NCBI RefSeq assembly: GCF_021462415.1 | Contig: NZ_JAKEDS010000001.1 | Span: forward strand, 654,273-718,272 | DNA: 64,000 nt | Direction of reading: 5' to 3' | Origin: Rhodohalobacter sp. 614A | Lineage (GTDB): Bacteria; Bacteroidota; Rhodothermia; Balneolales; Balneolaceae | Shown here: positions 55,728 to 60,560 of the stretch, one piece after another | Layout of the letters: each line of letters starts with the position of its first letter | How positions within the stretch are numbered: the stretch's first letter is position 1 | Position numbers and translations under genes: made by a program | The notes under the pieces: model-generated | Seen by the model: the letters and a program-made list of their open reading frames with translations, nothing else | What the model was told of the DNA's origin: nothing | Database searches by the model: none

Positions 55728-56426
55728 ATGAGCGAATCCATACACGAACGATACCAAAACATTAAAACCCGAATAGCCGATGCTTGCAAGAAAGCGGACA
55801 GAGATCCCAGCGAAATTATATTGATTGCCGTCAGCAAGTTGAAGCCGGATGAAGATGTCATTGAATTATTGAAAGACGGTCAACTTCATTTTGGAGAAAA
55901 CCGGGCAAAAGCCCTGGAAGACCGAATGACGGCCATCCCCGATGAATCTATCCAGTGGCACTTTATCGGAAATCTTCAGACCAATAAAATCAAATATATA
56001 GCGCACCGGGTAAACTGGATTCAATCGGTTCACAAGAAGAAAGCCCTCAAAGAGATTGAAAAACGTGCCGCACAGGAGAATCGGACGATAAACACCTTAA
56101 TACAGGTAAATATCAGTGAGGAAGATCAAAAAAGTGGCTGCGCTCCCGAAGATCTTGAAAAAATTCTTCAATACGGCCAGTCTCTAAAACACACCAATGT
56201 TTGCGGATTGATGGGAATGGCGACATATACCGACGATCATGAAGTTGTCCGGCCCGAATTTAAACTTCTGAAACAGTTATCGGAAGAACATCAACATTTA
56301 AATGACGGAGCGGTAAACCTGCAGCATATTTCCATGGGAATGACCAATGATTTTGATGTAGCCATCGAAGAGGGAGCAACGATTGTTAGAATTGGTACAG
56401 CCATATTTGGCGAACGCAACTATTAA
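55728..56426 (+). CDS. yggS: YggS-family PLP homeostasis protein
   Basis: 232 residues. The PLP lysine is in ILIAVSKLKP (Lys37); also seen are HFGENRAKAL, WHFIGNLQTNKIKYI, LIQVNISEEDQKSG, MGMATYTDD and the closing VRIGTAIFGERNY. It is a non-catalytic PLP carrier that balances vitamin B6 and amino acids. In Gram-positive bacteria the homologue (ylmE) heads the sepF-ylmGH-divIVA cluster; here small membrane proteins and a DivIVA-domain gene also follow it. Confidence 0.96.
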   Translation: MSESIHERYQNIKTRIADACKKADRDPSEIILIAVSKLKPDEDVIELLKDGQLHFGENRAKALEDRMTAIPDESIQWHFIGNLQTNKIKYIAHRVNWIQSVHKKKALKEIEKRAAQENRTINTLIQVNISEEDQKSGCAPEDLEKILQYGQSLKHTNVCGLMGMATYTDDHEVVRPEFKLLKQLSEEHQHLNDGAVNLQHISMGMTNDFDVAIEEGATIVRIGTAIFGERNY

Positions 56427-56596
56427 ACGCGTCAAACGTAATAAATACATCTCTCTGACTTGCTATTTACAGATTTGATCGGTTACATATAATCGTGGGA
56501 TTTTTATTAATTTATTTTACTGAAAGTAGCAGAGCGGGAATGGTTTTAGGTAACCTTATAACGTTTACTTCCAATTTCATTTAAATAGACCAAATT

Positions 56597-56908
56597 ATGT
56601 CTGGCACTTTCATTGCGTTGATTATCCTTACAGCTATTATTGGCGGATACCTGATTGACTACCAAAAAAACAAGCTTAAATGGCAATCAACGAATACCAA
56701 ACAGAACGAGGAAGTGGATGATCTTCGCAAACTGGTTCAACAGATGAAAAAAAGGATTGAAAACCTGGAAGCTATTGCCGCACAAAATCCGGATGATTTC
56801 AGAAATAACAATTCAAATCCGCGGGACTTTATCGAAATTGATGATGAAGAATCCGCCAAAAAAGAAAACCAGCAGAAAGTAGCTGATCACGTAAAAACTA
56901 AAGGGTAA
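56597..56908 (+). CDS. Small PspB-like membrane/coiled-coil protein (member 1)
   Basis: 103 residues: a single N-terminal transmembrane helix (FIALIILTAIIGGYLI), then a cytoplasmic coiled coil DDLRKLVQQMKKRIENLEAIAAQNPDDF and an acidic tail. The [KR]RIENLE[AR]I pattern recalls PspB. It lacks the KLRNMLNQ end of the next three genes and stands six bases before the second, so it is a divergent member of the same run. Function unknown; a stress or division role is inferred from context only. Confidence 0.75.
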   Translation: MSGTFIALIILTAIIGGYLIDYQKNKLKWQSTNTKQNEEVDDLRKLVQQMKKRIENLEAIAAQNPDDFRNNNSNPRDFIEIDDEESAKKENQQKVADHVKTKG

Positions 56909-56914
56909 GTACGA

Positions 56915-57286
56915 ATGGAATTTATACAATTATTGGAACCTTGGATGATCCCAATTATAATAATGATTTGTGTAACCATTATTGTAGCCGTTTCTGTTAT
57001 CGGGAATATTATCACCACGTCCATGAAAAGGAAGGATGGGAAGGACCTTTCGGAAAACAAAGAGTTTATAAATGCACTTCGTGAGTTCAAGGAAAATATA
57101 GATCAACGGGTTGCCAACCTCGAAGATGTTGTGCATGCCGAAAGAAAACGAAATGCTTCCCTGAAGGCTAATGAGGGAAAGAAAACGAACATGCAAAGTG
57201 CAATTGAGCTGGAACTTGATGAGGAAAAAACTCAAGAACAGGATGCCAATGAATCTTCAAAACTCAGAAACATGTTAAACCAATAG
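56915..57286 (+). CDS. Small membrane/coiled-coil protein (member 2)
   Basis: 123 residues: a transmembrane helix (MIPIIIMICVTIIVAVSVIG), then DLSENKEFINALREFKENID and QRVANLEDVVHAERKRN, an acidic helical tail and the final KLRNMLNQ. The middle block and the ending are shared with the two genes that follow, so these three are paralogues from tandem duplication. It is 4 bases upstream of member 3. No known family beyond a PspB-like resemblance. Confidence 0.75.
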   Translation: MEFIQLLEPWMIPIIIMICVTIIVAVSVIGNIITTSMKRKDGKDLSENKEFINALREFKENIDQRVANLEDVVHAERKRNASLKANEGKKTNMQSAIELELDEEKTQEQDANESSKLRNMLNQ

Positions 57287-57290
57287 CGTT

Positions 57291-57638
57291 ATGAGTCCTG
57301 ATGAGTTAATTGGTATGTCCATCTTTTTTGGCAGCATTGTAGCCATAATTTTTATTTTTGTGGTGGGTAGCATTATCAAGACATGGCTCAATAAAGGTTC
57401 AACCAAAAATCTTTCTGAAAACAAGGAATTTCTGGATGCTCTTCGCGAATTCAAGGAAAATATGGAGAGAAGAATGTCGAACCTGGAAGAGATCGTTTCT
57501 GATGAACGATCCGTAACAGCATCTGGCAATCAGGAAAGAAAATCGCAGCGTACAATTGAGTTGGAATTTGAGGACGAACCTCAACCCGAAAAGAAAATTG
57601 AAGAGACTGCGAAACTTCGAAATATTTTAAATCAATAA
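57291..57638 (+). CDS. Small membrane/coiled-coil protein (member 3)
   Basis: 115 residues: a transmembrane helix (MSIFFGSIVAIIFIFVVGSI), NLSENKEFLDALREFKENME, RRMSNLEEIVSDERS, an acidic region and the ending KLRNILNQ. Closest to member 4 in the membrane part (FFGSIVAIIFI against VFGSIVSIVFL). It is followed by member 4 after 12 bases. Confidence 0.75.
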   Translation: MSPDELIGMSIFFGSIVAIIFIFVVGSIIKTWLNKGSTKNLSENKEFLDALREFKENMERRMSNLEEIVSDERSVTASGNQERKSQRTIELEFEDEPQPEKKIEETAKLRNILNQ

Positions 57639-57650
57639 TGTAGGCCTATT

Positions 57651-58007
57651 ATGAATGAAGAGGTATTTATTGTTGCCATCGTTTTTGGAAGCATCGTTTC
57701 AATCGTATTCCTTGGAATTATTGGAAGCATTATTAAAGCTTGGGTTAAAAAGGGATCGTCTAAAAATCTTTCGGAAAACCAGGAGTTTTTAGCTGCTTTA
57801 AGGGAGTTTAAAGAAAAGACCGACCGCAGACTTTCCAACCTGGAAGCTATTATTACAGATGAGAAACCACCTGCCAGGGAAAAATCGAACAAGAAAGAAC
57901 TTCCTGAAAAAGAGAAAAAAAGCGCCATTGAAATAGAAATTGAAACCGAAAAAAAGAAAGAGAGTTCTAAAGAAAGCGGAAAATTGCGCAATATGTTAAA
58001 CCAATAA
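57651..58007 (+). CDS. Small membrane/coiled-coil protein (member 4)
   Basis: 118 residues: a transmembrane helix (FIVAIVFGSIVSIVFLGIIG), NLSENQEFLAALREFKEKTD, RRLSNLEAIITDEKP, a lysine/glutamate-rich tail and KLRNMLNQ at the end. The shared ending suggests a conserved interaction peptide. A DivIVA-domain gene begins 96 bases downstream. Confidence 0.75.
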   Translation: MNEEVFIVAIVFGSIVSIVFLGIIGSIIKAWVKKGSSKNLSENQEFLAALREFKEKTDRRLSNLEAIITDEKPPAREKSNKKELPEKEKKSAIEIEIETEKKKESSKESGKLRNMLNQ

Positions 58008-58103
58008 CTGTTAATTTTGGGGACCGTTTGTTTTTAAACCCGCACACTATTTTATTACTCCAAAGCGAGTTCATTTTTTTGAATCCTTATAGAAAAATCC
58101 CCT

Positions 58104-58709
58104 ATGAAATTAACAGCACTCGAGATCAAGCAGCAGCAGTTTGAGAAATCTCTTCGTGGTTATGACCCCGCCGAAGTTCAATCCTACCTGAACCTTATAG
58201 CCAGCGAATGGGAACATATGGTTGGCAAGATCCGTGAACTGGAAACCCAGGTTGATAAGATGAACAACAAGTTGAAACACTATGAACGTGTTGAAGAAGC
58301 GCTCCACGAAACTCTTCAAACAGCCAAGAGTTCAGCCGAAGAGAAATTAAGCGGTGCAAAAAAAGAAGCCAGTATTATTCGCGAAAAAGCTGAAATGGAA
58401 GCCGAAGCTATTATAAAGGATGCAAACCAGGAGCGTCGTGAAATTCGGCAAAGCATTATTCAACTTATTGATAAACGCGAAGAAATCATCAGAAGCATAA
58501 AGTCTTATCTTGAGAATACACGTGAATCGTTAGATCAATTCTCCGATGATGAACGATCTCTTTTTACGGTTCCGGACCAGCCTGAATTCATTTCAAAAAA
58601 AGAGTCAAGAAAAAGCCCGGCACAAAAACCGGAAAAGTCTAATCTTCTTAAAGACAGTGACATTCCCGGCGCTGAGAGAATTGACAGCATTATTGATGAA
58701 CTTGACTGA
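58104..58709 (+). CDS. DivIVA-domain coiled-coil protein
   Basis: 201 residues. The N-terminal segment MKLTALEIKQQQFEKSLRGYDPAEVQSYL is the DivIVA/GpsB membrane-contact domain, followed by a long coiled coil (about 35-150, with EEALHETLQTAKSSAEEKL) and a disordered tail. By family it self-assembles at curved membrane and places division or envelope proteins. It is encoded behind yggS and the small membrane proteins, echoing the ylm-divIVA arrangement of Gram-positives. Confidence 0.9.
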   Translation: MKLTALEIKQQQFEKSLRGYDPAEVQSYLNLIASEWEHMVGKIRELETQVDKMNNKLKHYERVEEALHETLQTAKSSAEEKLSGAKKEASIIREKAEMEAEAIIKDANQERREIRQSIIQLIDKREEIIRSIKSYLENTRESLDQFSDDERSLFTVPDQPEFISKKESRKSPAQKPEKSNLLKDSDIPGAERIDSIIDELD

Positions 58710-58732: not shown

Positions 58733-59569
58733 ATGGCATTTGACTCTGTAGAACAGTTTAGAGAAAAACGAGCTGAAGCTTTGAAATTTATTCAGGCCGA
58801 AACTGACCTTCGGCCTAACTATTTATTGATACTGGGCACCGGTTTGGGCCAGCTTGCTGATGAAATGATCGTAGAAAGCGAAATTCCTTATGATCAGATA
58901 CCGCACTTCCCTGTATCAACAGTTGAAAGCCATGCCGGCAAACTACTTTTCGGCACGCTTGGAGACAAGGAAGTAGTTGCTATGCAGGGGCGCTTTCATT
59001 TTTACGAAGGCTACACCATGCAGCAAATCGTTTTTCCCATTCGTGTTTTAAAAGAAAACGGAGCCGATACACTTTTTGTCAGCAACGCCTGTGGCGGCAT
59101 GAATCCCCAGTACCGAAGAGGGGATATCATGTTAATTTCTGACCACATCAACTTATTGGGTGACAATCCGTTAATTGGCCCAAATGATGATGAACTCGGC
59201 CCTCGATTTCCCGATATGAGTGACCCTTATACCGAAAGATTGCGGGAAATCGCCCAAAATGTAGCTCTCGAAGAAAGCATTCCTATGCACCAAGGTGTGT
59301 ATGTGGCGGTCAGTGGTCCCATGCTGGAAACCAAAGCAGAGTACAGGTTTTTGAGGCTACTTGGAGCAGACGTGGTTGGAATGAGTACCATTCCAGAAGT
59401 TATATCTGCCGTGCACATGGGAATGGATGTTTTAGGCATTTCGGCAATTACCGACGAATGTTTCCCGGATGCACTCGAACCTGTAAACATTGAAGATATT
59501 TTAGAAGCAGCCGCAATGGCGGAACCCAAAATGACAAAAATCATGATCCGGGTTCTGGAAAAATTGTAA
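58733..59569 (+). CDS. Purine nucleoside phosphorylase (trimeric type)
   Basis: 278 residues. Seen: LILGTGLGQLADEM (phosphate loop), HAGKLLFGTL, MQGRFHFYEGYTMQQIVFP, FVSNACGGMNPQYRRGD, SGPMLETKAEYRFLRLLGADVVGMSTIPEVI. These match the trimeric PNP class, which splits inosine and guanosine with phosphate in purine salvage. It begins 23 bases after the DivIVA-like gene, probably in the same transcript. Confidence 0.95.
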   Translation: MAFDSVEQFREKRAEALKFIQAETDLRPNYLLILGTGLGQLADEMIVESEIPYDQIPHFPVSTVESHAGKLLFGTLGDKEVVAMQGRFHFYEGYTMQQIVFPIRVLKENGADTLFVSNACGGMNPQYRRGDIMLISDHINLLGDNPLIGPNDDELGPRFPDMSDPYTERLREIAQNVALEESIPMHQGVYVAVSGPMLETKAEYRFLRLLGADVVGMSTIPEVISAVHMGMDVLGISAITDECFPDALEPVNIEDILEAAAMAEPKMTKIMIRVLEKL

Positions 59570-59780: not shown

Positions 59781-60560
59781 ATGAGCTCAGACGGTTTTGA
59801 TGATGGTTCCGTATGGAACGAATTCCAATGGGAGTCTCACCTGAACGAAATTGAACGACGCAGCGAACAACTGCGCCGCTTTATCACATCCGACCCTAAA
59901 GGAAAAACCCCAAGATGGATCACTCTTCTCCAGGAAAGCATGGATGAACTGGATGCTGTTGAAGCATTCATTGAAGAGGAGCTTCTTCTTGATGAGGCCT
60001 ATTTCCCCGAAGATGAAGATGATTGGGAAGATGATGAAGACGAATTTGAAGATGACGATTTTTTCTTCAAAGATTCTTCATTTCCTTTTTATGACGAAGA
60101 AGAAGACGAGGAAGATGATTTTGACTATGGTGAGGAATGGAAGGAATTAAGTGATGATTTTACCCTTTCCGACTACGGATCAATCGAAAATCTGGATATC
60201 TACCAGGAAGCCCGCGCCTACGCTGTGGATGTTCTGAAATGGGCTGAGATTGTCCCCCCGCAAATGCAAACCAAACATATTCATGAGTTTATTACGAATG
60301 TTTTAAAAATCACGGCCAAGCTTGCCGGCGGTTACTCTTTTGGTTTCGAACAGGATGTACTGGGTGGAAATATCGCTTATACTAAAAAAGCACTTTATAG
60401 TGCCAATGCAGCCCTTAGCCATCTACAGCAGATGAGGAGAGAGCCGTTTATTACTTCACTTGTCTATTCAAAATTTCATGGCCGCCTGTTCGAGATGCGC
60501 AACGATATCGGAATTTATATCCAGGAGTTGAGAGACCGTTTTCAGCTTGGGCTTGAGTAA
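59781..60560 (+). CDS. Acidic helical protein of unknown function
   Basis: 259 residues without export signal. An N-terminal helical domain (HLNEIERRSEQLRRFITSDP) is joined by an extremely acidic low-complexity linker (about residues 75-125, runs of Asp and Glu with Phe and Tyr) to a helical C-terminal domain (YQEARAYAVDVLKWAEIVP, then AALSHLQQMRREPF). I do not recognise the family. The composition of the linker fits salt-adapted or nucleic-acid-mimicking proteins; both are speculation. Confidence 0.7.
   Translation: MSSDGFDDGSVWNEFQWESHLNEIERRSEQLRRFITSDPKGKTPRWITLLQESMDELDAVEAFIEEELLLDEAYFPEDEDDWEDDEDEFEDDDFFFKDSSFPFYDEEEDEEDDFDYGEEWKELSDDFTLSDYGSIENLDIYQEARAYAVDVLKWAEIVPPQMQTKHIHEFITNVLKITAKLAGGYSFGFEQDVLGGNIAYTKKALYSANAALSHLQQMRREPFITSLVYSKFHGRLFEMRNDIGIYIQELRDRFQLGLE

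Follow-up and report, generated by a model that had tools for sequence, protein, structure and literature searches.

Several small bacterial division proteins, such as the ZapG-like proteins (PF06295) and DivIC (PF04977), consist of one membrane helix and a coiled coil, and in the ylmE-divIVA clusters of Gram-positive bacteria sepF and ylmGH are ordered between ylmE and divIVA. According to a previous study, yggS lies upstream of divIVA in Bacillus subtilis, Staphylococcus aureus and Streptococcus pneumoniae, and in the yggS-proC-divIVA operon of Bdellovibrio the product of the intervening gene was reported to bind DivIVA in two-hybrid tests (PMC7186360). The role of DivIVA in Bacteroidota and Balneolota has hardly been studied in the literature that we searched, in which, among the papers listed, the Bdellovibrio study is the sole one with DivIVA in its title. 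PspB was reported to be rarely found outside proteobacteria (PMC11237479) and to be present in 26% of the phyla analysed (PMC9239133); duplicates of PspB within psp operons (PMC11237479) and self-association of Escherichia coli PspB (PMC3068692) have also been reported. Here, we analysed a stretch of 64,000 nucleotides from Rhodohalobacter sp. 614A (the whole of it is called the window), in which four short genes, s1 to s4 (genome position C1:710869-712279), lie between yggS and divIVA and encode PspB-like membrane coiled-coil proteins.

We tentatively propose that the PspB-like family of Balneolales acts as membrane-anchored adaptors of the DivIVA-containing machinery at the pole or septum; our confidence in this reading falls somewhat short of even, and its partner is one that we infer. 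The proposal is favoured because s4-type genes stand almost universally beside divIVA (and four of the five exceptions have an s1-type match), because the small genes are closely packed, and because their linkage to divIVA has outlasted that to yggS in one family. It is also favoured because of a C-terminal tail motif that is better conserved than linker and coil, a trimerisation-type motif, a likely N-out topology and a recurrent tail pattern in DivIVA. The features concerned are listed below by position in the window.

55728..56426, + strand: yggS, YggS-family pyridoxal phosphate-binding protein, upstream neighbour (TIGR00044, E 1.7e-55)
56597..56908, + strand: s1, PspB-like membrane coiled-coil protein of 103 amino acids (aa) (PF06667, E 1.4e-5, 25.5 bits)
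56753..56770, + strand: s1 trimerisation-type motif RIENLE, residues 53-58 (R[ILVM]xx[ILV]E)
56915..57286, + strand: s2, s4-type tandem copy, 123 aa (grouped by the tree with the second genes of G005 and G015)
57107..57124, + strand: s2 trimerisation-type motif RVANLE, residues 65-70 (same pattern)
57260..57283, + strand: s2 C-terminal peptide KLRNMLNQ
57291..57638, + strand: s3, s4-type tandem copy, 115 aa (grouped by the tree with the third gene of G015)
57471..57488, + strand: s3 trimerisation-type motif RMSNLE, residues 61-66 (same pattern)
57612..57635, + strand: s3 C-terminal peptide KLRNILNQ
57651..58007, + strand: s4, divIVA-proximal copy, 118 aa (PF06667, E 2.7e-5, 24.5 bits)
57828..57845, + strand: s4 trimerisation-type motif RLSNLE, residues 60-65 (same pattern)
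57981..58004, + strand: s4 C-terminal peptide KLRNMLNQ
58104..58709, + strand: divIVA, 201 aa (PF05103, E 5.7e-29)
58662-58706, + strand: acidic C-terminal peptide of DivIVA, of the [LI]DDILDEI[DE] kind
58733..59569, + strand: pnp, purine nucleoside phosphorylase, downstream neighbour (NF006054, E 3.5e-112)

The gaps between s1, s2, s3 and s4 are 6, 4 and 12 bases, and 96 bases separate s4 from divIVA; the order s1-s2-s3-s4-divIVA is identical in Rhodohalobacter sulfatireducens. An earlier note on this DNA had described four short genes with gaps of 4-12 bases, each with an N-terminal helix and a PspB-like coil, which agrees with these gaps and with weak matches to PF06667. The octapeptide KLRN[MI]LNQ, said to end three of the proteins, does so in s2, s3 and s4 and is absent from s1, but the stretch SENKEFxxALREFKE, likewise attributed to three, is exact only in s2 and s3, s4 reading SENQEF and s1 lacking the stretch.

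The surroundings of divIVA were read at 108 other loci, giving 109 with the window's own, many of them from incomplete genomes; group labels (order, class, phylum, f1, g1 and so on) follow the grouping used in the analysis, and NCBI puts Rhodohalobacter sulfatireducens in Balneolota. A single DivIVA match per genome was found in 109 of the 116 genomes of the order and in 82 of the 83 good ones. According to the profile search, 102 of the 107 usable Balneolales loci (those with 500 or more bases before divIVA) have an s4-type gene in the 800 bases upstream of divIVA, and 106 of the 107 have an s1- or s4-type gene there, so the family is genetically linked to divIVA across the clade. The five loci without s4 belong to four genomes of genus g20, in which an s1-type match is present, and to G095, in which neither type was found in 578 bases. 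In a survey of open reading frames (ORFs) at the 109 loci, the small-gene pattern was s1-s4 in 61, lone s4 in 19 (one a wrong-frame ORF), s1-s4-s4 in 15 and s1-s4-s4-s4 in four; rarer outcomes were none in four, s1 alone in three (one a short remnant), s4-s4 in two (the second ORF outlying in both) and s1-s1-s4 in one (its second s1 ambiguous, 46.3 vs 45.6 bits). The usual Balneolales set is s1 plus one s4 (61/109), and s2 and s3 are lineage-specific tandem copies. The median gap is 4 bases between small ORFs (107 gaps) and 46 bases to divIVA (105 gaps).

Family f4 has lost the adjoining yggS in seven of eight usable loci, but s1 and a second small gene remain with divIVA; HlyIII and MarC genes lie upstream in the one f4 locus scanned. 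Five family f3 genomes examined carry a further family member away from divIVA (six copies, with differing neighbours) and keep a small gene beside divIVA too; the class of these copies is unsure, since the s4 profile scores better in four of the six and the s1 profile in two, and the protein starts are s1-like by eye. The g20 genomes (L095, L119, L165 and L169) are four small genomes in which s4 is lost, an s1-like gene or remnant and DivIVA are kept, and the DivIVA tail is altered to the DDDFMNTFLDELD type; they constitute a natural test case for the role of s4.

The tail motif [LIVM]xNx[LIM] occurs within the last 16 residues of 123 of the 124 s4-type proteins (shuffled mean 3.5, maximum 9), against a background of 26 in 667 ORFs of at least 150 aa from the same loci. 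Mean pairwise identity among a random 50 of the 99 divIVA-proximal proteins is 0.49 over the last eight residues, 0.36 over the first 35, 0.29 in the coil and 0.19 in the barely conserved linker. Among the octapeptides of s2, s3 and s4, five of the eight codons (for L, R, N, M/I and N) differ between copies, and the residue is changed at M/I only. Searched as degenerate DNA, LRN[MI]Lx[EQ]-stop occurs four times in the 4.69-Mb genome, namely in s2, s3 and s4 and at a fourth place that has an in-frame stop; the reversed control pattern does not occur in the genome. The conserved C-terminal peptide probably grips a partner. We found no description of a C-terminal LxNxL docking peptide.

The earlier note had anticipated both a conserved docking-type peptide and conserved synteny with divIVA, and both extend far beyond this genome. 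Its reading is supported in part, the division or envelope-stress role suggested there being a hypothesis. Two observations had been named there as speaking against it, homologues lying apart from yggS or divIVA and an ending confined to this genome. The former was encountered in part, in the f4 loci that have parted from yggS but not from divIVA and in the off-locus copies of f3; the latter did not occur, as other genomes conserve the ending too, so that the reading passed this half of the test.

Each of s1, s2, s3 and s4 has one N-terminal hydrophobic segment followed by a coiled coil. In the samples used (84 usable s1-type and 124 s4-type proteins), positive charge is greater after the helix than before it in 122 of 124 s4-type and 62 of 84 s1-type proteins, so that an N-out topology with the C-terminal part in the cytoplasm is likely. 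Hydropathy, charge and the motif R[ILVM]xx[ILV]E together predict, from sequence, a PspB-type topology of N-terminal helix, outward N-terminus and cytoplasmic coil. This motif, searched in residues 31-100, is carried by 204 of the 208 proteins (84/84 s1-type and 120/124 s4-type), with means of 2.2 and 2.3 after shuffling of residues 35-90; shuffles of this kind, those of the tail and linker included, ignore relatedness and the counts therefore overstate independence, but the motif nevertheless spans five families. Its R and E are the sole invariant columns in both reference alignments. R-hxxhE has been published as a trimerisation motif, with Ile/Leu/Val/Met at position a and Leu/Ile/Val at position d (PMC3653964, PMC5940361). 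When the two h are set at a and d, the remaining core positions are only partly hydrophobic. The linker holds an element [ILV]E[ILVF][EDKNQ] in 54 of 84 s1-type and 79 of 124 s4-type proteins (shuffled means 3.8 and 12.4).

In the adaptor model, the coiled coil would form a parallel trimer, possibly mixed among the copies, so that each complex would present as many as three flexible docking peptides beneath the membrane. The peptides would bind a protein of the cytoplasm with avidity at the pole or septum; this partner would be DivIVA itself or one organised by DivIVA, and the tandem copies would vary valency or partner choice. A bolder version is that duplicated PspB-like trimers give a Gram-negative lineage a new, clade-specific module, a multivalent platform for DivIVA at the membrane that docks via the C-terminal LxNxL; this is possible and, in our view, rather doubtful. 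If true, such a platform would replace the SepF or amphipathic-helix anchors used elsewhere, and a stress-sensor fold would have been converted to a polarity or division adaptor.

The strict DivIVA tail pattern (the [LI]DDILDEI[DE] kind) is present in 102 of the 109 loci of the order, in two of 33 outside it, and in none of the four g20 loci without s4; as g20 is one clade, its tail change and s4 loss count as one event. DivIVA itself may carry a docking-type C-terminal peptide, because tails that look related by eye occur in other members of the class and phylum. As regards this tail as the specific partner of the s4 tail, the pattern is common in the order and rare outside, but look-alike tails and the single g20 clade blunt the comparison. 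In correlations of evolutionary distance over 59 loci (partial r, controlling for the other genes), s1-DivIVA reached 0.47 and s4-pnp 0.50, and yggS, nif3 and pnp gave 0.37-0.50 among themselves.

Several results weigh against the adaptor proposal. The partial r of s4-DivIVA is weak (0.11), and that of s1-s4 is 0.08, so that mixed s1/s4 trimers are not favoured. Outside the order, where s4 is not alongside, many DivIVA tails look by eye like that of Balneolales (LSLDDILNELD, INIDEILNSLE, EIEKIRRILNDLD; L233-L265). G095 keeps the strict DivIVA tail with no small gene in its 578 bases, the four g20 genomes keep DivIVA without s4, and gene linkage alone can be operon inheritance. As for the peptide, the tail motif is absent from 70 of the 84 s1-type proteins and present in 14 (shuffled mean 1.1, maximum 5), and by reading it also ends all six off-locus f3 copies that were fetched. 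As for the trimer, the core of the s4 coil is imperfect, with N43, K54 and T57 at a/d positions, and the best matches of the s1 profile in the PDB are generic coils, headed by C/EBP-alpha (E 0.013), whose coil is a dimer; the lower matches (L1ORF1p, coronin-1A and matrilin) are weak and generic too. Solved structures were accordingly set aside as a clue to identity, as the profiles match generic coiled coils only. The R-hxxhE motif has also been found in some dimers (PMC3653964).

With respect to PspB, none of the four window proteins reaches the Pfam gathering cut-off of PF06667 (25.6 bits), s1 and s4 lying just under it and s2 (18.9) and s3 (18.6) well under, and for NCBIfam TIGR02976 the scores are 21.1-25 bits vs a cut-off of 51.7. 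In Pfam, s1, s3 (E 0.002) and s4 match PF06667 best, and for s2 it comes second (0.0016), behind a chance-looking match to Mre11 (6.1e-4). Among the members of the family alignments, 19 of 57 s4-type and 20 of 32 s1-type match PspB at E ≤ 0.01. E. coli PspB beats all 5000 composition and all 5000 heptad-preserving shuffles against each family profile, the closest shuffle scoring 22.4 vs 22.7 (profile A2). In hhalign, PspB is matched at a probability of 88% by s4 (34 coil columns) and of 80% by s1 (33 coil columns), and the s1 and s4 families match each other at 98%. Judged by these profiles, a relation of s1/s4 to characterised PspB is real but remote, and PspB in the strict sense fails on score and gene context, as pspA and pspC are not encoded together with the small genes (PspA at C1:276296; PspC at C3:199617 and C2:936392).

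A genuine PspB function is the alternative that survives best, although we regard it as unlikely. Under it, s1 and s4 would be sensors of envelope stress that signal to PspC and PspA, whose genes lie elsewhere, and the site beside divIVA would be incidental or would place the sensor at the pole or septum. The recurrent Pfam match, the shuffle and hhalign results, and the presence of PspC and of PspA each in 56 of the 59 genomes of the order fit such a role, but the window proteins score below the cut-off, the psp genes of this genome lie on other contigs or far off, and the LxNxL tail is missing from E. coli PspB (74 aa). Co-loss of psp genes with s4 was considered and rejected, and it speaks against this function that the 12 genomes without an s4-type match (several incomplete) keep PspC in 11 and PspA in eight.

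The PspC-domain proteins of this genome are encoded at L190:4109-4291 and L191:3931-4602, and one of them consists of that domain alone (60 aa). Genomes of the order usually have two PspC matches; in this one, neither adjoins pspA or the PspB-like genes. Two weak s4 matches were discarded: the one on C4 is by reading a glycosyltransferase-like ORF, and the one on C5 belongs to another type of membrane coiled-coil protein, which does not match PspB at E ≤ 0.01. A membrane coiled-coil protein encoded in this genome at L194:1463-1822 (- strand, 119 aa) has RRLENLEAIV and a basic end; it matches DUF948 weakly, PspB does not match it at E ≤ 0.01, and the 3.5 kb that were read contain no divIVA.

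At loci outside the order (20 in the class and 13 more in the phylum), the first or second recognised gene ahead of divIVA is yggS in 17 of 20 and 10 of 13, pnp follows divIVA in 20 of 20 and 10 of 13, and a PspB-like gene stands between yggS and divIVA in one of 20 (G164) and none of 13, respectively. Because yggS-divIVA-pnp is mostly without PspB-like genes there, the small genes look like an addition, dating from the ancestor of Balneolales or from before it, to an older arrangement. The likeness drawn in the earlier note to sepF and ylmGH of Gram-positive clusters therefore holds for position only: besides these loci, SepF (PF04472) was found in none of 21 genomes by a search aimed at it, which was positive in seven of 14 control genomes including B. 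subtilis, and SepF is not among the Pfam matches of the window's small proteins. In G164, a class member outside the order, the s1-like gene (L239:2936-3304, - strand) matches PspB at E 0.001, behind DUF7856 (3.4e-4); the gene hints that the insertion may predate Balneolales or was gained twice.

A tree of 124 s4-type proteins, which has few columns, many unresolved forks and some long branches, placed the window's s2 with the second genes of G005 and G015 (support 100/92), s3 with the third gene of G015 (100/99), and s4 with those genes of G005 and G015 that lie nearest divIVA; further tandem copies, from the remaining g1 species and from g16 and its relatives, were placed apart. The end branch of s4 is the shortest (0.08; s2 0.27, s3 0.30). 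From this placement and the short s4 end branch, extra copies seem to arise again and again ahead of a conserved gene proximal to divIVA, and the tandem duplication suspected earlier is borne out.

An insertion of this kind could also have left mere passengers, kept with divIVA by operon inheritance and with a function unrelated to DivIVA. The rarity of such genes outside the order, the weak distance correlation of s4 and the further family members elsewhere in f3 would agree with it, but the linkage to divIVA is near-universal in the order and outlives the loss of linkage to yggS in f4, and we consider this explanation very unlikely.

FtsZ ends in QP[AP]FLR[KNR]xMD in 11 of the 12 loci read (L273-L284; nine QPAFLRKIMD, one QPPFLRNLMD and one QPAFLRRAMD), the twelfth frame being cut short, and these tails have L-R-[KNR]-x-[ML] in common with the s4 tails of the L[RK]N[MKQR]L type. 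This shared element keeps in play, together with the lack of SepF in the 21 genomes, the idea that the s4 tail mimics the FtsZ C-terminal peptide and docks on its receptor (FtsA or another anchor), the small proteins being Z-ring membrane tethers and not DivIVA partners, but we hold it to be highly improbable, since the s4 tails are without the QP[AP]F part, the N nearly fixed in s4 is found in only one of the 11 FtsZ tails, and when the s4 tails are aligned from the end, 40 of 124 have K there instead of R.

Downstream of pnp, a very acidic ORF of 259 aa (59781-60560, + strand) has no NCBIfam match and insignificant Pfam matches; pnp is likewise followed by an unassigned ORF of about this length at many loci that were read. 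Upstream of s1, an 11-of-12 promoter match was seen at 56466-56493 of the window, but the best match over 89 loci averages 7.98 vs 8.00 in shuffled sequence; the scan being at background, no promoter is claimed for s1.

Returning to the adaptor proposal, the LxNxL peptide is a concrete bait, whose partner would reveal the role of the DivIVA locus in this lineage. The motif also leads to a testable claim on PspB itself, namely that its core may be trimeric.

Compared with known systems, the s1-s4 family is closest to PspB, with which it shares an N-terminal membrane helix and a short cytoplasmic coil carrying R-h-x-x-L-E (RIQALE in E. coli). Unlike E. coli PspB, the window proteins are 29-49 residues longer, with a variable linker, and the s4 type bears the LxNxL tail; the family adjoins divIVA, not pspA or pspC, and occurs as one to four tandem copies. 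The ZapG-like proteins and DivIC differ in profile, at most two members of either alignment matching one of them at E ≤ 0.01, far fewer than match PspB. Between yggS/ylmE and divIVA the small genes occupy the position of SepF and YlmG/YlmH in Gram-positive clusters, whereas their products have no SepF match. The Bdellovibrio operon likewise places a gene between yggS and divIVA, but its product is a ProC homologue and not a membrane coiled-coil protein, so that for s1-s4 it is an analogy, not a homology.

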